Source of the DNA: Candidatus Rokuibacteriota bacterium
GTDB taxonomy: Bacteria > Methylomirabilota > Methylomirabilia > Rokubacteriales > CSP1-6
NCBI GenBank assembly: GCA_016866775.1
Contig: VGLJ01000029.1
Location: 1 to 58,026, forward strand
Direction: 5' to 3'
Length of the DNA stretch: 58,026 bases
The notes beneath the pieces are model-generated. The model had not been told where the DNA came from. It worked only from the letters and a program-made list of their open reading frames with translations, and did no database searches. The position numbers and the translations under genes are program-made. Position 1 is the stretch's first letter. Every line of letters begins with the position of its first letter. Positions 781 through 34,218 of the stretch are shown in pieces.

Positions 781-2210
781 GTGGACGGAGGACCGCTGGT
801 GGACTGTTCCCGCTGCCGGGCTGAGAACCGCCCGGGCCGTCGGTTCTGCGCACGCTGTGGAGCACCACTGGCAGCGGTGTGTCCCTCGTGCGGCTTCGCC
901 AACGACTCGGACGAGGTGTTCTGTGGAGGCTGTGGGCGGAGCCTCGATGCCTCGCGTGGCGATGAGCCGGGGCGTGCCGCAGCGGGGGCGCGATGGGCCG
1001 CCGAGGCCGAACGCCGCCAGTTGACCGTCATGTTCTGCGATCTCGTCGGATCCACCGCGTTGGCGAAACGGCTCGGTCCCGAGGAGCTCCGCGAAGTGGT
1101 CCGAGCGTACCAGGAAGCCGCCGCCCGCGTCGTCGGTCGCTTCGACGGTTACATCGCCCAGTATCTCGGCGACGGATTGCTGATCTACTTCGGGTACCCC
1201 CAAGCCCACGAGGATGATGCCTCGCGGGCCGTGCGCACGGGATTGGGAATCGTCGAAGCGATGGCGGAGCTCAATGGCCGCCTGCATCGTGAGAAGGTGG
1301 CGCGGCTGGCCGTCCGGCTGGGGATCCATACGGGACTGGTGGTCGTGGGTGAGATGGGCGGCGGTGTCAGGCACGAGCAGCTTGCTCTGGGCGAGACACC
1401 AAATCTGGCGGCGCGACTCCAGGAGCAAGCCGAGCCCGACACGGTTCTGATCAGCGACACGACCCACCGGTTGGTCCGGGGCCTGTTCGCCTGCCGCGAG
1501 CTGGGCCCCCGGGACGTCAAGGGCAGCCTCACTCCGCTCGTGCTGCACCAAGTACTCGGCGAGAGTGCCGCTCTGAGCCGGCTGGACGTAGTCGGCCGGG
1601 CCAATCTCACGCCGCTGATCGGCCGCGAACGGGAACTCGGGATGCTGCTGGAGCGCTGGGAGGAGGCGAAAGACGGACTGGGACAGGTGGTGCTGCTGAG
1701 TGGAGAAGCGGGCATCGGGAAGTCGCGTCTGCTGGACGCGCTGAAGGAGCGGCTCGTGAGCGAGTCGCACACCCGCTGGGAGTGCCGCTGTTCGCCCTAT
1801 GACCAGCAGAGCGCCCTCTATCCAGTCGTTGAATTCCTTCAGCGGGCCCTCCGGTTCCAGCGCCACGAGCCCGCCGAGGAGAGGTTGCGAAAGATCGAGG
1901 CGGGGCTCGAGCGGTATGGCCTGGGCGACGCGGCGGCGGCGGCGCTGTGGGCCGGGTTGCTCTCCGTGCCGTTGCCCGATCGATACGCACCAATCACGCT
2001 CACTGCCGAGCGGCAGAAGCAGAAGACCCTGGAAGCCGTGTTGGCGCTCCTCCTGGCCCAGGCCGCTGAGCGGCCCGTCCTGATGATCATGGAGGATCTG
2101 CACTGGGTCGATCCTTCCACGCTGGAGTTGCTCGCCCTGATTCTGGGTCAGGTGCCGACGACCTCGGTCTTGACGATTTTGACTTTCCGCCCAGATTTTC
2201 GTCCGCCCTG
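781..2210 (+). pseudogene. Zinc-ribbon / class III adenylate cyclase / AAA ATPase regulator, 3'-truncated
   Basis: The protein opens with two zinc ribbons (CSRC...CARC and CPSC...CGGC, residues 9-58). A class III nucleotide cyclase domain follows (about residues 78-240) with FCDLVGST and YLGDGLLIYFG, which supply both metal-binding aspartates. Next comes an ATPase domain with Walker A GEAGIGKSR (near residue 306) and Walker B-like LMIMEDLHWVD (near 435). Such cyclase-ATPase proteins are usually about 1,000 residues and end in TPR repeats. Here the homology stops at TFRPDFRPPW (about residue 476). From about 2211 the open frame only runs across the antisense of a Rieske gene to a stop at 2775. 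Start GTG 781; GTG 799 is an alternative. The signalling head is intact but the sensor half is missing. Confidence 0.8.
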
Positions 2211-2213
2211 GGT
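2205..2213. other. Junction joining two truncated genes head-to-tail
   Basis: To the left, the plus strand encodes the cyclase-ATPase motif FRPDFRPPW. To the right, the minus strand encodes the Rieske oxygenase motif LPENDSDGYHPG. Both homologies end within a few bases of each other around CGCCCTGGGTGG. Neither gene has any remnant on the other side. Codon use and GC also change here: the left side is milder and the right side strongly GC-rich. It marks either a real rearrangement (deletion/inversion near an IS) or an assembly join. Confidence 0.75.
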
Positions 2214-2822
2214 GGTAGCCGTCGCTGTCGTTCTCGGGGAGCATCTTCCAGTTGGCCGCGCAGCGGTGCTTCACCCACCCCGCCGTCAGCTCGATCTTGC
2301 CCTCGGGCGACAGGTCGCAGGAGCGATCGATGAGCGTGACGGCCCCGCCGAGGTGCTCGTCGAGCGCGATCCCGTCGGCGCTGAGGCTCGCGAACACGAA
2401 GCCGCGGCAGCTCGCGACGCGCGGCGCGCGCGTCAGGCCGCGCGCGCTCTTGTCGAACGCCGCGTCGTACCCGCCCGGGTACGGCACGCCGAGCAGCGCG
2501 CCGCCGAGATCGTAGGTCCAGCCGTGATAGGGACACGTGAACGCCGCGTCGTCCCGTGCTCGACGGCACAGATCATCGTGCCGCGATGCATACAGCGGTT
2601 GAGCAGCACGGCGATCTCGCCGTCCTGGCCGCGCACCATGATCGCCGGCTGGGTGCCGATGGGACGCGTCACGAAGTCGCCGGGGCGCGGCACCTCGCTC
2701 GCGTGGCCGACGAAGACCCAGCCGCGGTGGAAGATGCGCTCCATCTCGTCGGCGAAGATTCGCGGATCGGTGTAGAGCGAGGCGTGAATGCGATCGTCGC
2801 GGCCGAGATCCTCGTAGCGCAC
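2211..2822 (-). pseudogene. Rieske (2Fe-2S) aromatic oxygenase large subunit, frameshifted and 3'-truncated
   Basis: Reading leftwards from ATG 2822, the protein starts MRYEDLGRDDRIHASLYTD and reaches the first Rieske half CMHRG. At about 2555 the frame changes. The second half, TCPYHGWTYDL, lies in the next frame and continues through NWKMLPENDSDGYH to the junction near 2211. The two halves together make a normal Rieske C-x-H/C-x2-H cluster. The break looks like loss of one G from a GGGG run between EHG and DDAAFTCPYHG. The mononuclear iron catalytic domain is missing beyond the ENDSDGYH iron-site start. It follows the CoA-transferase by 15 nt on the same strand, so it was the second gene of that operon. 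Confidence 0.8.
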
Positions 2823-2837
2823 CGCCCCGGCGCTGAT

Positions 2838-4031
2838 TTAGATCACCTTCTCCGCGCGGAGCTGCGCGATCTCCTCCGCGCCCATGCCGAGGATCTCCGA
2901 GAGGATCCCGTCGGTGTGGCGTCCCATCGCGGCCCCCGCGTGCGTCACGCGGCCCGGCGTCTTCGAGAGCTTGGGAATCACGCCGGGTTGCGGCAGCGTG
3001 CCGAGCCCGTCCGCCGGCACGTCGAGGATCATGTCGCGCGCGCGATAGTGCGGATCCTCGAAGATGTCCGCCATGCTCATGATCGGCGAGTGCGGGATGT
3101 CGGCGGCCTTCAGCTCGGCGAGCGCCTTGTCGAACGGCCGCGCCTTGAACCACTCGGTCATCATGTCGATGATCGTCGGGATGTGCTTCGGCCGCTCCGC
3201 CGCGCTCGCGAAGCGTGGATCCTTCGGCAGATCGCGGTGGCCGATCATCGCGCACAGGCGCTCGAAGAGATGCTGCGCCGGCGCGGTGAAGACGATCCAC
3301 TTGCCGTCCATCGTCTCGAACGCGCCGCCGGGCCAGCCGGAGTGCTGGACGCCGCCGCGCTCGCGGACGACCTTCGTCCGCCCGTACTGCGTGGTGGTGT
3401 ACTCCATCACCCGGAACGCCGACTCGTAGAGCGCGGCGTCGATCCACTGCCCTTCGCCCGTCGCGTCGCGATGCCGCAGTGCCGCGAGCACGCCGAACGC
3501 GGTGAAGAGTCCGGTCATGTAGTCGGGATACACCGGCGTCGGCCGTGCCGGTGGCCGATCCGCGTGACCGTTCACGTACCACGTCCCGCCGAACGCCGAG
3601 CCGATCGCCGCGTAGCCCGGGCCGTCCTTGAGCGGCCCGTCCTGGCCGAACGCGGTGATGCGCGCCATCACCATCCGCGGGTTGATTGCGTGAAGCGCAT
3701 CCCACCCGAGACCCCACTTCTCGAGCACGCCCGGGCGAAAGTTCTCGAGGACGACGTCCGAGCGCGCGACGAGGCGCCGCACGATCTCCTGGCCCTTCGG
3801 CAGGTGGAGGTCGAGCGTCATCAGCTTCTTGTTCCGGTTGTCGACGGCGAACCAGTACGACGTGCCGTCTTCGGACGGGCCGAGCCGGCGCAGGTCGTCG
3901 CCTCGCCCCGGCATCTCGGTCTTGATCACCTCGGCGCCGAACTCGGCCATCAGCGTGCCGCAGAACGGGCCGGCGACGACCTGGGCGAGCTCGAGCACGC
4001 GAATGCCTTCGAGCGGACGTGCGGCTATCAT
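2838..4031 (-). CDS. Class III (CaiB/BaiF) acyl-CoA:carboxylate CoA-transferase
   Basis: This 397-residue protein has the normal length and landmarks of family III CoA-transferases. They include GIRVLELAQVVAGPFCGTLMAEFGAEVIK at the start, NRNKKLMTLDL, SDVVLENFRPG, and PDYMTG, whose Asp (about residue 169) is the catalytic nucleophile. The enzyme moves CoA between carboxylic acids as part of catabolite activation in the cytoplasm. A minus-strand TAGACT hexamer lies at 4042-4047, 10 nt before the ATG. The gene leads an operon whose second gene was the now broken Rieske oxygenase, so the substrate may have been an aromatic or alicyclic acid. The substrate cannot be read from sequence. Confidence 0.92.
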   Translation of the reverse strand: MIAARPLEGIRVLELAQVVAGPFCGTLMAEFGAEVIKTEMPGRGDDLRRLGPSEDGTSYWFAVDNRNKKLMTLDLHLPKGQEIVRRLVARSDVVLENFRPGVLEKWGLGWDALHAINPRMVMARITAFGQDGPLKDGPGYAAIGSAFGGTWYVNGHADRPPARPTPVYPDYMTGLFTAFGVLAALRHRDATGEGQWIDAALYESAFRVMEYTTTQYGRTKVVRERGGVQHSGWPGGAFETMDGKWIVFTAPAQHLFERLCAMIGHRDLPKDPRFASAAERPKHIPTIIDMMTEWFKARPFDKALAELKAADIPHSPIMSMADIFEDPHYRARDMILDVPADGLGTLPQPGVIPKLSKTPGRVTHAGAAMGRHTDGILSEILGMGAEEIAQLRAEKVI

Positions 4032-4889: not shown

Positions 4890-6470
4890 ATGGGAGCGCG
4901 GAGCGGACAGGCGTACGTCGAATCGCTGAAGAAGAACACGCCGCGCGTCTACCTCGGCGGCCGGCTCGTCACCGACGTCACGGCGGAGCCGATCTTCCAG
5001 GAGCCGATCCGCGCGATCGCCGAGCAGTACGACATGCAGCTCGACCCCGCGTACCGTGACGTGATGACGTATCCGTCGCCGACGACGGGCGCGCCGGTCT
5101 CGACGTCGTTCCTCGTCCCCTACTCGCGCGGGGACCTGGTCAAGAAGCGCAAGCACTTCAAGCTCCGCGCCGACCACAACTTCGGCTTCATGGGCCGCGC
5201 GCCCGACTTCATGAACCAGTTCGTCACGGGCTGGCACCTGATCGCGGGCCGGTTCGCGCGCGCCGGCGCCCGCTTCGGCGAGAACGCCACGCGCTACTAC
5301 GAGTACGTGCGCGAGCACGACCTGTTCCTCACGCACATGCTCATCAACCCGCAGATCGACCGCTCGAAGACGTCCGCGCAGCAGGAGGATCCGTTCCTCC
5401 ACCTGGGCCGCGTGCGCGAGACGGCGGACGGCATCATCGCGCGGGGCGCGAAGATGCTCGGCACGATGGCGCCGATCACCGAGGAGGTGGCGGTGATCCC
5501 GTTCGGCGGCGTGCCGCCGGGCGACGACGCGTACGGCCTCGTCTTCTCGATCCCGAGCAACGCGCCGGGGCTCACGTTCATCTGCCGCGAGACCGTGTCG
5601 CCGCTGCCGCGCTCGCGCTTCGACCACCCGCTGTCGAGCCGCTTCGAGGAGATGGACTGCATCGCGGTGTTCGAGGACGTGCTCGTGCCGTGGGACCGGG
5701 TGCTCGTCGACGGCAGGCCGGGCAGCGGCGAGCTGATCAACACGCTCGGCTCGGACTTCGGCGCGCTGACGAACATGCAGACCGCGGCGCGCATGCTGAG
5801 CCAGATGGAGTTTTTCTGCGGGCTCGCGATGCGGGTCGCCGACGCGATCGGCATCACCGGCTTCCTGCACGTCCAGGAGAAGCTCGGCGAGATGCTGAGC
5901 CACATGGAGGTCGCGCGCGCCGTGTTCTACGGCGCGGAGGCGATGGGCTATCCGGGCCCCGGCGGCGTGTGGCTGCCCGGCGGTCAGGGGCTGCGGGCGT
6001 TCCACCTGCAGACGGGAAAGATCTACAGCCGCTTCGTCGAGATCGTGCAGACGCTCGCGGCGGGCGGCTTCTTCTACGCGCCGACCGAGGCGGATCTCGC
6101 GAGCCCCGAGGTGCGGCCGATGATCGACAAGTTCGTGCGCGGGCGCGCGGGGATCTCGGCGGAAGAGCGGATCGCGCTGTTCAAGCTCGCGTGGGACGTG
6201 ACGGGCGAGAGCTTCGCTCAGCGGATGCAGCAGTACGTACGCTTCTTCTCCGGCGATCCGATCCGGCTCACCGCCGGCTTCTGGGCCCAGTACGACAAGG
6301 AGCCGCTGCTCGAGATCGTGGAGCGCGCGCTCGGCCGCCGCGAGGGCCAGCCGATCCCGATCTCACCGGATCACGCCGTCGGCGCGGTCCCGTATCAGCC
6401 GGGCAACCGCACGATGGCCGGCCAGTACGCGGCCAGCTCGATGCCCGAGAAGCGCGACGAGCGTCGCTGA
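4890..6470 (+). CDS. 4-hydroxyphenylacetate 3-monooxygenase-type FADH2-dependent hydroxylase (HpaB family)
   Basis: The 526-residue protein matches HpaB/PvcC flavin hydroxylases along its whole length. It has SGQAYVESLKKNTPRVYLGG at the N-terminus, a first domain with HNFGFMGRAPDFMN, and DPFLHLGRVRETADGI. A beta domain follows with RFDHPLSSRFEEMDCIAVFEDVLVPWDRV, then an acyl-CoA-dehydrogenase-like helical domain. These enzymes use FADH2 made by a partner flavin reductase to hydroxylate phenols or related substrates, or to open them. No HpaC-type reductase is present; the nearest electron carriers are the convergent operon at 6474-9337. A TAGACT hexamer sits 7 nt before the ATG and there is no Shine-Dalgarno sequence. 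Confidence 0.88.
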   Translation: MGARSGQAYVESLKKNTPRVYLGGRLVTDVTAEPIFQEPIRAIAEQYDMQLDPAYRDVMTYPSPTTGAPVSTSFLVPYSRGDLVKKRKHFKLRADHNFGFMGRAPDFMNQFVTGWHLIAGRFARAGARFGENATRYYEYVREHDLFLTHMLINPQIDRSKTSAQQEDPFLHLGRVRETADGIIARGAKMLGTMAPITEEVAVIPFGGVPPGDDAYGLVFSIPSNAPGLTFICRETVSPLPRSRFDHPLSSRFEEMDCIAVFEDVLVPWDRVLVDGRPGSGELINTLGSDFGALTNMQTAARMLSQMEFFCGLAMRVADAIGITGFLHVQEKLGEMLSHMEVARAVFYGAEAMGYPGPGGVWLPGGQGLRAFHLQTGKIYSRFVEIVQTLAAGGFFYAPTEADLASPEVRPMIDKFVRGRAGISAEERIALFKLAWDVTGESFAQRMQQYVRFFSGDPIRLTAGFWAQYDKEPLLEIVERALGRREGQPIPISPDHAVGAVPYQPGNRTMAGQYAASSMPEKRDERR

Positions 6471-6473
6471 GCG

Positions 6474-7139
6474 TCAAGCCATCGCGACGTAGAGCTCGCC
6501 CTTCTCCTCCTTCAGCGGGAAGCCCTTCAGGCCCTCCTGCGCGTCGCCCATCGGCGCGCCCGTCTTCACGTCGAACTGCCACATGTGCTCGAGGCACGTC
6601 AGCACCGAGCCGTCACATACGCCCTCGGCGAGCGGGATCGCCTCGTGGGGGCACATCGCCTCGTACGCGACGAAGCCGCGGCCCGTGTTGATGACGACGA
6701 CCCGGGTGCCGTTCGCCGCCACTTCCTTGATGCCGTTCACCGCGATGTCGGCGGCCGCGCCGACGCGATGCCACACCGGGCCCGCGGCCTTCTCGGCCTG
6801 CGGCGTCTTCACCTCGACCTCGATCTTGTTCGCGCCGGGCTTGCCCGGGTTGTAGCGCAGCCGCTCGACCGGCATGCCGCCGATGATGTGCGAGTCGAGG
6901 ATCTCCTTCAGGTCCGACTCCTGCACGCCGTGGTACCAGACGTCCTCCGGGTAGACGACGAGCATCGGGCCGTGGCCGCACTGCGAGAAGCAGCCCGCCT
7001 TGTTGACCCGGACGTCTTGCTGGCGGCCGGCGGCGCGGGCGCCGTCGCGGAGGATCTTCACGAACTTCTCCACGTCACCCTGCGTCGGGCACGTCTCGCC
7101 GCTCGTACACACGAACACGTGACGATCGTACTGACCCAT
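6474..7139 (-). CDS. Thioredoxin-like [2Fe-2S] ferredoxin fused to a Rieske ferredoxin
   Basis: Residues 1-85 form a Shethna/NuoE-like thioredoxin-fold ferredoxin. Its four cluster cysteines lie in CTSGETC and AGCFSQCGHGP, and LVVYPEDVWYHGV follows. Residues 105-221 are a Rieske domain with CPHEAIPL and CLEHMWQFDV, giving the C-x-H and C-x2-H ligands. Two one-electron carriers are thus fused in a single 221-residue soluble protein. It is the last gene of an operon with the reductase and the LLM oxidoreductase. A strong AAGGAGGGG site precedes the ATG. It probably passes electrons from the reductase to an oxygenase; which one is inference. Confidence 0.85.
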   Translation of the reverse strand: MGQYDRHVFVCTSGETCPTQGDVEKFVKILRDGARAAGRQQDVRVNKAGCFSQCGHGPMLVVYPEDVWYHGVQESDLKEILDSHIIGGMPVERLRYNPGKPGANKIEVEVKTPQAEKAAGPVWHRVGAAADIAVNGIKEVAANGTRVVVINTGRGFVAYEAMCPHEAIPLAEGVCDGSVLTCLEHMWQFDVKTGAPMGDAQEGLKGFPLKEEKGELYVAMA

Positions 7140-7154
7140 GCTCGGAGCCCCTCC

Positions 7155-8189
7155 TTAGGAGAACTTGTCGTACCGGATATCGGCGGGCGGCAGGCGCGCC
7201 TCGCGCAGCAAGAGCCGCAGGCTCGCGTCGACCATCGGCGGCGGCCCCGCCACGTACGCGCGGACGCCGGCGAAGCGGTCCTTCATGCGCTCGCCGGCCA
7301 CCGCGTGGACGAAGCCGCGCGCGAAGGCGAAGCCCGGATACTTCGCGACCAGCGAATCCGGGACGTCCTCGTCGGACAGCGCGATGGTGATCGAGAGCCG
7401 GGCCGGAAAGCACGCGCGGAACTCGTCGAGCTCGTCGAAGAAGAACGCGTCGCGCGCGCCCCGCACGCCGAAGAAGACGTGCCCGTCCCACTGCGCGAAG
7501 TGCTGCGCCTGGCACGCGTGCGCGAGGACTGACATCATCCCGGCGATCCCGCTGCCGCCCGCGATGCACAGCACGTGCTTCGCGGTGCCCGGCTGCCAGA
7601 TCGCGTGACCGACGGGCCCGAAGATCTCGAGCCGCGTCCCCTCGACGCCGCCGCCGAAGAGCCACTCGCTCACGCCGCCGCCCGGCTTCTTCTTGACGAC
7701 GAAGGAGAGCCGCCGCGCGCCGCGCTCGAAGTTCACCATCGAGTACGCCCGGGCGCCGGCGATCCCGGGCACGGTCAGCAGCGCGAACTGGCCGGCGTCG
7801 AAGTCCATCGGTGTGTCGAGATCGACCTCGAACGCGACCACGTCGTGCGTGAGGGGCCGGACGTCGCGCAGCACGCCCGCGCATGCGCGCGGCGTCGCCG
7901 TGGCCTCGCGCGCCTTGAGCGCGAAGACCTCCAGCGCGGAGTCCTCGTGTGCCACGCTCTGGCACGTGAGGATGTCGGCCTCGGTCTTCAGATATTTCTT
8001 GCCCGGCGCGTCGGGCCATTGACTGTCGGTGCGTCCGCTCACGAGCTTCGCCTTGCACGTGCCGCACGTGCCGGTCGCGCACTCGTACGGCAGCTCGACT
8101 CCGTGCCGCAGCGCCGCGTGAAGGATCTTCTCGCCGGGATCGCACTCGAAGTCCGCCGCGCCGGTCTTCCCGGTGACGACGATCTTCAC
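7155..8189 (-). CDS. NAD(P)H:ferredoxin-type reductase with plant-type [2Fe-2S], FAD and NAD domains
   Basis: The N-terminal 90 residues are a plant-type ferredoxin with CATGTCGTC and a fourth cysteine in LTCQS. An FAD-binding beta barrel follows (GVLRDVRPLTHDVVAFEVD, and RAYSMVNF as the RxYS FAD motif). The NAD domain has LCIAGGSGIAGMMSV and ends AYVAGPPPMVD. At 344 residues this is the standard layout of single-component electron-transfer reductases of toluene, phenol or benzoate oxygenases. The start overlaps the stop of the LLM gene by 4 nt (ATGA), and the ferredoxin-Rieske gene follows 15 nt later. The three genes form a coupled electron-supply unit. Confidence 0.92.
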   Translation of the reverse strand: MKIVVTGKTGAADFECDPGEKILHAALRHGVELPYECATGTCGTCKAKLVSGRTDSQWPDAPGKKYLKTEADILTCQSVAHEDSALEVFALKAREATATPRACAGVLRDVRPLTHDVVAFEVDLDTPMDFDAGQFALLTVPGIAGARAYSMVNFERGARRLSFVVKKKPGGGVSEWLFGGGVEGTRLEIFGPVGHAIWQPGTAKHVLCIAGGSGIAGMMSVLAHACQAQHFAQWDGHVFFGVRGARDAFFFDELDEFRACFPARLSITIALSDEDVPDSLVAKYPGFAFARGFVHAVAGERMKDRFAGVRAYVAGPPPMVDASLRLLLREARLPPADIRYDKFS

Positions 8190-9337
8190 GAGGTGACGCG
8201 GGCCGCCGCGTAGCGCGGCATCACTTCGGTGGTGAAGAGCTCGATCGAGCGCATCGCCTGCGCGTGGGTGAGGTCACCCCACTGGAACGAGCAGACGAAG
8301 TAGTTCGCGCCGGTCTCGAGGTACTCGTCCATGTACTCGCGTACGGCCACCGGCGTGCCGGCGAGCGCGACACCGCCGAGCCGGTTCGGATGCGAGCCGC
8401 GCTTCACCTGGTCGAAGCGCTCGAGCTCGGCGTCGATGTCGCGCCGGAGCTCGCGCGTCGGCAGGCCCCGCGGGCGCTCGCCCACGAACCCGAACGAGCC
8501 GTCCTTGGTCGACATGAACTGCGTGAGGTTGCGCTTCTCGGCTTCGAGCCGGCGGGGCGCCGCGAGGTTCCAGCGGTACTTCTCCCACGCCGGCTGCGCG
8601 ATCTTCAGCGCCTCCTCGTCGGTGTCCGCGACGACGAGATGGACCACGAGCCCGATCATCGGGTCCTGGCCCTGCACCGTCTTCGTGCCCTTGCCCTGGT
8701 GCTCTTCCCACGCGGCGCGATAGCGCGGCACCGCGACCCCGAGCCCGTCGATCGAGCCGACGATGATGGTGTGCATCCCTTCCATCGCCGCCGTCACCGG
8801 ATTGCGCATGTACCAGAGCGGCGGGTACGGCTGTTGCAGCGGCCGCAGGTACATCGGCAGCTCCTCGAAGCTGTGGAAGCGGCCGGCGTACGTCAGCTTC
8901 TCGTGGCTCAGCCCTTCACGGAGGATCGCGAGCGTCTCGACGTAGCGCGCGTAGTTGACCTCCGGATCGGCTTCCTGACCCCAGAAGAACGCTTCCATCA
9001 CGCCGCCGCGCCCGACGCCGATCTCCAGCCGCCCGCCGCTCACGTTGTCGAGCATGCTGATCTCTTCGATCAGCCGCAGCGGATGGTGCAGCGGCAGCAC
9101 GTAGACGCAGGGCCCGAAGCGCATCGTCGACGTCCGCTGCGCGACCGCGCCGAGGAACACGTTCTGCGAGGGCGCGAGGCTGTGAATGGCCGGCGTGTGG
9201 TGCTCGGCCAGGTGGTAGGCGTAGAACCCGCTGCGATCGAGCTTCTCGATCTGCACGAGCCGCTCGCGATAGATCTGGTCGAGCCGCTGCCCGGGCACGG
9301 GCTCGATGTGGTCGAAGACCCCGAAACGCAGGCTCAT
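8186..9337 (-). CDS. LLM-class flavin-dependent oxidoreductase (bacterial luciferase-like)
   Basis: The 383-residue protein opens MSLRFGVFDHIEPVPGQ and carries the luciferase-family landmarks YAYHLAEHHTP, GPCVYVLPLHHPLRLIEEISMLDNVSGGRLEIGVGRG and PPLWYMRN. These enzymes use reduced FMN or F420 to oxidise small substrates. I chose the ATG at 9337 because GGAGGGGGG lies just before it and family N-terminal homology starts there. It is the first gene of a three-gene operon with the reductase and the ferredoxin-Rieske fusion. Its flavin is presumably reduced by the partners; this is inference. A minus-strand TATCAT at 9357-9362 may be the -10 box, giving an ordinary leader of about 13 nt. Confidence 0.9.
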   Translation of the reverse strand: MSLRFGVFDHIEPVPGQRLDQIYRERLVQIEKLDRSGFYAYHLAEHHTPAIHSLAPSQNVFLGAVAQRTSTMRFGPCVYVLPLHHPLRLIEEISMLDNVSGGRLEIGVGRGGVMEAFFWGQEADPEVNYARYVETLAILREGLSHEKLTYAGRFHSFEELPMYLRPLQQPYPPLWYMRNPVTAAMEGMHTIIVGSIDGLGVAVPRYRAAWEEHQGKGTKTVQGQDPMIGLVVHLVVADTDEEALKIAQPAWEKYRWNLAAPRRLEAEKRNLTQFMSTKDGSFGFVGERPRGLPTRELRRDIDAELERFDQVKRGSHPNRLGGVALAGTPVAVREYMDEYLETGANYFVCSFQWGDLTHAQAMRSIELFTTEVMPRYAAARVTS

Positions 9338-31989: not shown

Positions 31990-32068
31990 TCATAGAGAGC
32001 CTGGGTCGCGGGGTTTTGAGCGAGGCGAAGCACGTTGCGGCGCTGTACGGGTACGTCGATCCGAAGGC

Positions 32069-33738
32069 GTGGCGATCTTTCCCGTATTCGATCAGGCCCA
32101 ACTCCGGTGGCACTACCGGAGCCGTGACGAGCGCCTGATTACCTTCTCGAACCACTACTTCTATCGTGAGAGGCCGCTCATCACGTTTCCCTCGGCGTCG
32201 ACGACTACCGAGGATCGCGGCGTTCGGCGGGTTTACGTGGCGGATAGCGTCTGGGACCGCGGCGGCAGCCGAACCAATCGTGTGGAGGCTCGGAGGATCG
32301 TTGAGCTCATCGTGGACCACGCCGAGCAACGGCCGGACCGATCGCTCGGTGTAGTGGCCATGAACGTGGCACAGCGGGAGGCAATCGAGGAACTGCTCGA
32401 TGAGCGTTTCCTGGAACGACCGGACCTTCGAGAGCGCCTCTTGGCGAACGCGGAGGAGCCGTTCTTCATCAAGGCCCTGGAGAACGTGCAGGGAGACGAG
32501 CGCGACACAATCATCATCAGCATTGCCTACGGGAAGACCGCGAGCGGCGCACTGAGCTATAACTTCGGTCCGCTCAATCAGGACGGCGGCTGGAGGCGCC
32601 TCAACGTGCTCGTACCCCCGCGCGCTGGCAAACCATCCTTGTGACCAGCATGCGCACGGCCGACCTCTCGGGGATCAACCCGAACAACCGCGGTGCTGTC
32701 GCGCTCCGGAACTTCATCGAATATGCAGAGCGGGACTGCATGCTCCCAGTCGAGGCTGCGGTTCTTACCGAAGAGGAGACCAACGACTTCGAGGACGCTG
32801 TCGCCGAGGCATTGCGCGGCCGCGGCTATGCCGTCGACCAGCAGGTTGGCGCGAGCGGGTACCGCATTGATCTCGCAGTCCGCGATCCAGGCGATCCGGC
32901 TCGCTATCTCCTCGGTATCGAGTGTGATGGCGCGACCTACCACAGCGCGAAGACGGCGCGCGATCGCGATCTACTCCGTGAGCACGTCCTCAAGGACTTA
33001 GGCTGGCGTCTCCACCGGATTTGGTCGACTGAATGGTTCAGAGATCGCGAGCGCGCCATCGACACCGCAGTCGGCGCTGTAGAGAAGGCGCGGCACGCGC
33101 CGGCCGATCACTCGGTCTTCGCCCCTCCGGTCCGGGTTCCCGAAGAAGATCCAGAACGGCGACCAGCGCCAGTACAGACGGTTGCCCGCCGCTATCCCTC
33201 GGGCACGGCGTGTCAGAAATACACCGGCTCAGGTGAGCGGCAGCTTCTCCTCGAAGCTGGCAGGCGGCGCGATCTCGCAGTCCAAGTCGTCAGAATCGTC
33301 ACGGTCGAAGGACCGATTCACCAAAACCTACTCACGGAGCGGCTCAAGGAGGTCAATGGCGTCGGGAGAGTCGGGGACAGGGTGGCTGCGAACATCCAGC
33401 ATGCCGTGCAGATCGCTCTCGGACGGCAGGAGCTCGAACGGCTAGGCACGGATTTCCTCAGACGGCCGGGCCGCACCCTGTCGACCTTCCGGACGTCGGG
33501 TGACGGTGTCCAACGCCCAGCCGCATGGATTCCAATCGACGAGATCCAACTCGCGGTGCTTCACATCGTAGAGGACCAGTTCGGCTGCCAGCGCGGCGCG
33601 TTGCCGAGAGCCGTAGGAGAACTCTTCGGTTTCGATCGCACACCCGGCGGTCTTGCGGAACTGGTAGCCACAGCCGTAGACATTCTCATCGACGAAACGC
33701 GGCTCCAGACGAGTGGCCCGAACGTGTACGTGCCGTGA
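32069..33738 (+). pseudogene. C-terminal remnant of a SF1 helicase - MTES_1575 nuclease - DUF3320 protein, frameshifted
   Basis: From about 32099 one frame gives helicase C-terminal motifs: LRWHYRSRDERLITFSNHYFY, ENVQGDERDTIIISIAYGK and SYNFGPLNQDGGWRRLNVLV. At 32613-32614 one base is missing and the gene continues in another frame with TSMRTADLSGIN. A Vsr/MTES_1575-like nuclease domain follows (RIDLAVRDP, LLGIECDGATYHSAKTARDRDLLREHVLKDLGWRLHRIWSTEWF). A DUF3320-like end follows with VVRIVTVEGPIHQNLLTERL and AVGELFGFDRT. Intact proteins of this architecture exceed 1,400 residues and are linked to phage defence or plasmid control. Here the N-terminal two thirds are absent. The last codons overlap the PIN gene start (GTGA). 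Confidence 0.75.
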
Positions 33739-34218
33739 TTGCACGAACGAGGCTTTACATCGATACGTCGACCCTCGGGGCCACCGCAGATCAAGGCCCG
33801 GAAGACCGCTTCACGGCAACCCGCCGACTTCTTGATGACGTCGCGGTAGGCAGGTAAGAGGCATTCATTCATTTCGACGGTCGTTCTCACCGAGGTTGAC
33901 GCAGCCGCAGAATCAATCCGCAAGAAGATTGAGGACGAGTTGAGGCGAACATCGATGATCGTCCTGGAAGAGACTGCCGAGAGCGTGCAACTCGCGGGAA
34001 GATATGTGTCCAGTGGCGCAATGTCGGCGAACGCCGAGAACGACGCCCGGCACATCGCCATTGCTTCCGTCAACGACATCCGTGTCGTCGTGTCGTGGAA
34101 CTTTCGGCACATGGTCAATATCGAGCGAAAGCGTAGGATCAACAGCGTAAACTTGGCAGAAGGTTTCGCAGTCATCGATATCGTCTCGCCATGGGAGGTG
34201 GGAGGTGACGAAGCGTGA
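33735..34218 (+). pseudogene. PIN-domain toxin, inactivated by a stop codon and a 4-bp duplication
   Basis: GTG 33735 opens a PIN protein, RLYIDTSTLGATADQG, with the first catalytic Asp, and runs to LLDDVAVGR, where TAA stops it at 33855. Beyond the stop the homology continues in another frame: FISTVVLTEVDAAAESIRKKIEDEL, ENDARHIAIASVNDIRVVVSWNFRHMVN, which carries the later acidic residues. Removing one copy of the tandem ATTC at 33867-33870 and reading TAC for TAA would restore a continuous protein of about 160 residues. PIN toxins cleave RNA. The toxin is broken while the small downstream partner remains open. Confidence 0.75.

Follow-up and report, generated by a model that had tools for sequence, protein, structure and literature searches.

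A thioredoxin-like ferredoxin fused to a Rieske ferredoxin forms a conserved two-gene unit with its reductase in Rokubacteria

The 58,026-nucleotide stretch analysed here, contig VGLJ01000029.1 of a Candidatus Rokuibacteriota soil bacterium (in the following, the window), encodes a protein in which a thioredoxin-like [2Fe-2S] ferredoxin is fused to a Rieske ferredoxin, and next to it a ferredoxin-FAD-NAD reductase. An earlier note, made from the sequence of the window alone, had described this fusion as a hard-wired electron relay beside two flavin oxygenases. We found that fusion and reductase recur together in other genomes of the order and that no oxygenase gene is a fixed neighbour of the pair. 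Our reading, held with evenly balanced confidence, is that the two proteins may form a self-contained NADH-driven relay that supplies oxygenases in trans; its likeliest clients would be Rieske oxygenases without their own redox chain.

The fusion protein and its reductase

The fusion is a single open reading frame of 221 amino acids at 6474-7139 on the minus strand, and both of the domains claimed for it were matched. Residues ~1-104 form the thioredoxin-like [2Fe-2S] ferredoxin, residues 105-122 a linker and residues 123-220 a Rieske ferredoxin of the T4moC/CarAc type. Residues 123-197 match the Pfam Rieske family with 51.7 bits (cut-off 20.3), and residues 128-219 match T4moC (4p1c, 3e-14), with CarAc (1vck, 2e-9) also close. 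The Pfam scan gave no family of its own for the ferredoxin half, and residues 5-95 score 63 bits against NF041612 (thioredoxin-like [2Fe-2S] ferredoxin), under the 150-bit NCBIfam cut-off. The naming of this half therefore rests on its PDB match, Aquifex Fd1 (1f37, 6e-14), and on a fold search. An AlphaFold model of the fusion was of moderate confidence (mean pLDDT 70.7; below 50 in the linker). Used as query, it matched ferredoxin halves and Rieske halves separately and supported the thioredoxin-like fold; the longest alignment among the matches listed spanned 124 columns, compared to 221 residues in the protein. With this fold and its four cysteine ligands, the N-terminal half has the hallmarks of a thioredoxin-like [2Fe-2S] ferredoxin. 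All eight cluster ligands, C11, C17, C50 and C54 of the ferredoxin and C163, H165, C182 and H185 of the Rieske domain (CxH...CxxH), are invariant among the 11 fusions that we recovered. Mean pairwise identity is 79% for the ferredoxin half and 70% for the Rieske half versus 22% for the linker, the length of which varies from 15 to 26 residues, and these identities indicate that both halves are under selection. The open-access literature searched (titles and starts of abstracts) contained no protein that joins a Rieske to a thioredoxin-like ferredoxin.

For comparison we used 60 genomes of the order, in which the genome of the window is labelled G000. The full-length fusion was found in 11 of them, spread over nine genera (G000, G001, G005, G007, G008, G012, G022, G026, G027, G028 and G031), and a profile search across 95 genomes of the phylum recovered the same 11 fusions and no further ones. 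Peptide patterns of the window protein were also run against about 85,000 species genomes, a scan that uses the patterns of one protein and reaches close relatives only; here, full-length fusions (6 of 15 loci) were confined to Rokubacteria. None of the 246 plasmid records with a match covered 80% of the fusion. Because it recurs across genomes, the fusion is neither a chance nor a sequencing accident. This search, which the earlier note had proposed for the fusion and its neighbours, thus disposes of the possibility that the fusion occurs only here.

The reductase (7155-8189, minus strand; 344 amino acids) matches Fer2, FAD_binding_6 and NAD_binding_1, and the fusion follows 15 bp downstream of it. 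Its nearest solved relatives are CarAd (7c3a, 8e-49) and T4moF (4wqm, 2e-34), with GcoB and BenC also among them. In the 11 intact copies the motif RAYSMVN is invariant and GGSG.AGMM nearly so. Reductase genes were present in 12 of the 60 genomes, namely exactly the 11 with the fusion and G009, which has a Rieske-only form, and in all 12 the gene adjoins the fusion or the Rieske-only form on the same strand. Since the reductase is always found in this position, we conclude that fusion and reductase are a conserved two-gene unit. The coupling of the two proteins claimed in the earlier note is borne out, and because the fusion always recurs beside the reductase, the pair can fairly be called a "hard-wired relay". 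Other neighbours of the units include a cupin protein (G007, G022, G026) and flanking ABC-transporter genes, named by eye (G005, G008). A recurrent oxygenase neighbour was not found across the 12 units.

Two of the units deviate from this layout. Downstream of the reductase, G009 encodes a Rieske protein whose N-terminal MGQ leads directly into the Rieske half, the ferredoxin domain being missing. MGQ is also the start of all full-length copies except those of G001 (MGP) and G031 (LGQ, with a TTG codon). Furthermore, when read by eye, the G009 gene agrees in ribosome site and first codons with the full-length fusion gene of its congener G008. The simplest reading is that the ferredoxin half was deleted in frame. 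Since the ferredoxin half was lost and reductase and Rieske domain were kept, the reductase-Rieske step is likely the core of the unit, and this natural deletion tells which of the two heads is central to it. The G031 reductase (L053:8149-9783) has lost around 36 residues around GGSGIAGMM, in the NAD-binding stretch, together with a frame change, and is either degenerating or misassembled.

Origin of the ferredoxin half

Most genomes of the order carry a stand-alone ferredoxin that is ~70% identical to the ferredoxin half of the fusion, and all 12 unit-bearing genomes have kept this gene. Compared within one genome, the fused domain and its stand-alone counterpart share 70-81% identity (nine genomes). 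The stand-alone gene adjoins ispG at 25 of 31 loci and proS at 27, with one or both present at all 31, and in the Methylomirabilota record L014 it likewise occurs with both. Neither ispG nor proS was found near the fusion in the loci read. In a tree of 42 ferredoxin domains the fused ones fall outside a well-supported stand-alone clade (96/97) and form no single supported clade; a single origin of the fused domains would be compatible with this tree. Judged by sequence and gene neighbourhood, the ferredoxin half is a duplicated copy, a paralogue, of the ispG/proS-linked stand-alone ferredoxin.

The stand-alone gene (L063:7595-9012 and 30 other loci) often lies inside a run resembling rseP-ispG-ferredoxin-proS-rimP-nusA, in which rseP, rimP and nusA were named by eye. 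Its product is a candidate for a dedicated electron donor of IspG; the open-access literature searched held nothing on a thioredoxin-like [2Fe-2S] ferredoxin together with IspG. At L069, L070 and L190 the IspG homology comes in two parts separated by ~0.4-1.1 kb, a pattern suggestive of a longer IspG into which a domain has been inserted. Such longer forms occur in other phyla.

Candidate client oxygenases

Alpha subunits of Rieske oxygenases (PF00848) are present in 10 of the 12 unit-bearing genomes compared to 18 of the 48 others (Fisher p 0.008, uncorrected for kinship). The two unit-bearing genomes without them are G001, which is 75% complete, and G031, whose unit is the only one with a damaged reductase. 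Several alpha genes are flanked by a small gene that was named beta-like by eye, from its length and position (one such pair lies at G000:C14), and in nine stretches around alpha genes no relative of the reductase or the fusion was detected at 1e-6. The window itself contains the most natural client candidate for a Rieske ferredoxin, which the earlier note had overlooked. A broken Rieske-oxygenase alpha gene (2205-2837, minus strand) lies 3.6 kb downstream of the unit, in two pieces of different frame (2541-2837 and 2205-2547), and may be a former client in cis. It starts directly after a gene for a CoA-transferase of family III (CaiB; 2838-4031, minus strand), changes frame near 2541 and ends abruptly at ~2205, meeting a cut-off zinc-ribbon/guanylate-cyclase/AAA gene (781-2775, plus strand). 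The break could stem from a rearrangement or from a join made in assembly. Relatives of the alpha gene with 66-81% identity are single-frame in G007, G014 and G018. As a separate observation, relatives of the CoA-transferase (85-94%) stand beside Rieske-oxygenase genes in genus g7 (L262, L263, and as neighbours of L229, L232, L238, L242, L243 and L257), which suggests a conserved oxygenase/CoA-transferase pairing in this genus.

Several observations weigh against Rieske oxygenases as the clients. G001 carries the unit and has no match to PF00848 or PF19112 in its 75% complete genome. We clustered 61 oxygenase reading frames from 60 fetched stretches, covering most, not all, of the PF00848 rows (locus L212 gave no frame); the two largest groups are represented in seven and six of the 12 unit-bearing genomes, each also outside them, and none of the clustered groups tracks the unit exactly. 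Eighteen genomes have oxygenase genes and no unit, and other reductases must therefore serve there. In addition, the open gene adjoining the unit in the window encodes a luciferase-like monooxygenase (LLM) and not a Rieske oxygenase, while a gene for a 263-amino-acid diiron protein of family PF02332 diverges from that of the reductase in G008 and G009 and shares a contig with the unit in G012. Oxygenases of family PF19112 were considered as clients as well and were of no help, being present in 4 of 12 unit-bearing genomes (G000, G008, G009, G027) versus 10 of 48 others.

The LLM (8186-9337, minus strand; 383 amino acids; PF00296, 140.9 bits) heads the minus-strand order, its gene overlapping that of the reductase by 4 bp. 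In a three-gene operon of this kind, reductase or fusion could reduce flavin mononucleotide (FMN) or enzyme-bound flavin for the monooxygenase, and the oxygenase domain of a two-component FMN monooxygenase is indeed present, the adjoining reductase being of the BenC/CarAd kind. The same gene order and the same 4-bp overlap are repeated in G012, a member of another genus, with different outer neighbours. Moreover, LLM orthologues (at least 82% identity; 16 of the 60 genomes) are found in eight of the 12 genomes with the unit and in eight of the 48 without it (Fisher p 0.0014, uncorrected for kinship). However, the LLM adjoins the unit only in these two of the 12 unit-bearing genomes, and 14 of the 16 LLM genes lie away from it; eight genomes have an LLM without the unit, four the unit without an LLM. 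Tips from unit-bearing genomes cluster only weakly on the LLM tree, 34 of 500 label shuffles giving a value as low. LLM and reductase trees, the latter without the G031 copy, are poorly resolved and fit an LLM-unit operon that was inherited as well as one that was assembled twice. A Rieske step would be unnecessary for making free reduced flavin, the window genome has three flavin reductases of family PF01613, and no LLM with a Rieske chain appeared in the open-access literature searched. The link drawn in the earlier note thus stands weakly, with the arrangement repeated in G012 and the LLM elsewhere or absent in the other ten unit genomes. As a fixed partner of the unit the LLM is weakened, and we retain it as a rival that we consider unlikely. 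The second flavin oxygenase of the earlier note, an HpaB-type hydroxylase (4890-6470, plus strand; HpaB_N and HpaB), is convergent with the fusion and reaches 425.9 bits against TIGR02309, below the equivalog cut-off of 480.2. It had been proposed to receive reduced flavin or electrons from the unit, being without a flavin reductase partner. No PF01613 flavin reductase is encoded on the window contig, so that this part of the claim stands locally; the three such enzymes of the genome are encoded elsewhere. Around the other 11 units, the flanking sequence fetched (loci of ~11-20 kb) contained no HpaB relative. Orthologues with 81-85% identity were found in four other genomes on contigs without the unit, and two of these genomes, G024 and G035, have no unit at all. 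According to a Pfam scan, the G035 orthologue is divergent to a PF01613 (HpaC-type) flavin reductase; the other three lie on short contigs that were read by eye. On the strength of these neighbourhoods and of the PF01613 gene in G035 we reject HpaB as a client of the unit, a role to which we assign a next to negligible probability, and the convergent gene is judged not to be part of the unit. Neither flavin oxygenase is more than an occasional neighbour. Thus, the concern raised in the earlier note that orthologues might have unrelated neighbours applies to LLM and HpaB and not to the reductase.

Two further rivals look beyond the window. Diiron monooxygenases of the PF02332 superfamily could be served in the way T4moF and T4moC serve theirs. 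The Rieske half is nearest to T4moC, and the diiron gene, beside the unit in G008 and G009 and on its contig in G012, would fit this idea. Against it, PF02332 has no match in the window genome, is absent from 7 of the 12 unit-bearing genomes and is not enriched among them (5 of 12 versus 15 of 48 others, p 0.51). We therefore reject the diiron protein as a general client and regard the explanation as improbable. A short stand-alone PF02332 protein (~263 amino acids, DExRH motifs; L058:8011-8802, minus strand, and 16 other genomes) is widespread in one genus; no subunits or reductase were seen near it. Alternatively, the unit might feed IspG or the ferredoxin pool of isoprenoid synthesis, with the Rieske half as the entry from the reductase. 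The neighbourhood of the stand-alone ferredoxin and its identity to the fused domain speak for such a connection; the retention of the stand-alone gene in every unit-bearing genome and the absence of ispG and proS near the fusion speak against it, and G009 dropped the ferredoxin half yet kept the reductase. The potential of a Rieske cluster is as a rule too high for electron delivery to a low-potential acceptor. For IspG of E. coli, PMC8896826 gives a requirement of E' < -300 mV. We therefore consider this route very improbable.

A region of lower G+C was noted further along the window, at 32001-34000 (0.63 versus ~0.70 elsewhere).

Relation to known redox chains and proposed mechanism

In the T4moF/T4moC and CarAd/CarAc systems, a reductase of this type feeds a Rieske ferredoxin. 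The unit shares with the toluene-4-monooxygenase pair T4moF-T4moC both the Fer2-FAD-NAD reductase and the Rieske ferredoxin, whereas here the Rieske domain is fused to a thioredoxin-like ferredoxin, the operon has no monooxygenase genes of that system and the genome has no PF02332 protein. The carbazole 1,9a-dioxygenase pair CarAd-CarAc provides the best solved match of the reductase and a close Rieske match. There, the ferredoxin is a separate protein and the terminal oxygenase is encoded together with CarAd-CarAc; in the unit the ferredoxin is fused and no terminal oxygenase is encoded with it. Like these chains, the unit consists of a Fer2/FAD/NAD reductase with a co-encoded Rieske ferredoxin, but the window operon contains no intact Rieske or diiron oxygenase. 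The four cysteines and the fold of the N-terminal half are those of Aquifex Fd1 and of Azotobacter FeSI (Shethna protein I), which are single-domain proteins, in contrast to the Rieske-joined form described here. NdmD, the caffeine demethylase reductase, carries an extra Rieske domain. According to PMC12445004, NdmD likewise belongs to a Rieske-oxygenase chain and holds several redox domains in one chain; in that case the domains lie within the reductase, whereas here the reductase is separate and two ferredoxins are joined. By its sequence, the unit resembles known reductase/Rieske-ferredoxin chains and appears set apart from them by the fused ferredoxin and the absent co-encoded oxygenase.

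As to which way electrons flow, which enzymes receive them and what the second head does, we infer the following scheme. Electrons would pass from NADH to the FAD and then to the plant-type [2Fe-2S] cluster (Fer2) of the reductase, and from there to the Rieske head of the fusion. The Rieske head would hand them on to oxygenases whose genes lie at other sites of the genome, with Rieske oxygenases that have no chain of their own as the most probable recipients. The N-terminal ferredoxin head may serve as an additional site for docking and electron storage, or as an additional entry or exit for electrons. In a bolder version, which we find rather unlikely, the fusion would be a two-headed hub through which both the central low-potential ferredoxin pool and NADH drive chainless oxygenases, a shared adaptor with many clients.

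In these uncultured bacteria, the genes for Rieske oxygenases often have no visible redox partner with them. If the proposal is true, a reductase-ferredoxin unit that is shared and unlinked would explain how those oxygenases are powered, and it offers a concrete pair of proteins to express with them. With the ferredoxin head derived from an ispG/proS-linked ferredoxin, it also becomes possible to test whether oxygenases are connected to the low-potential ferredoxin pool.

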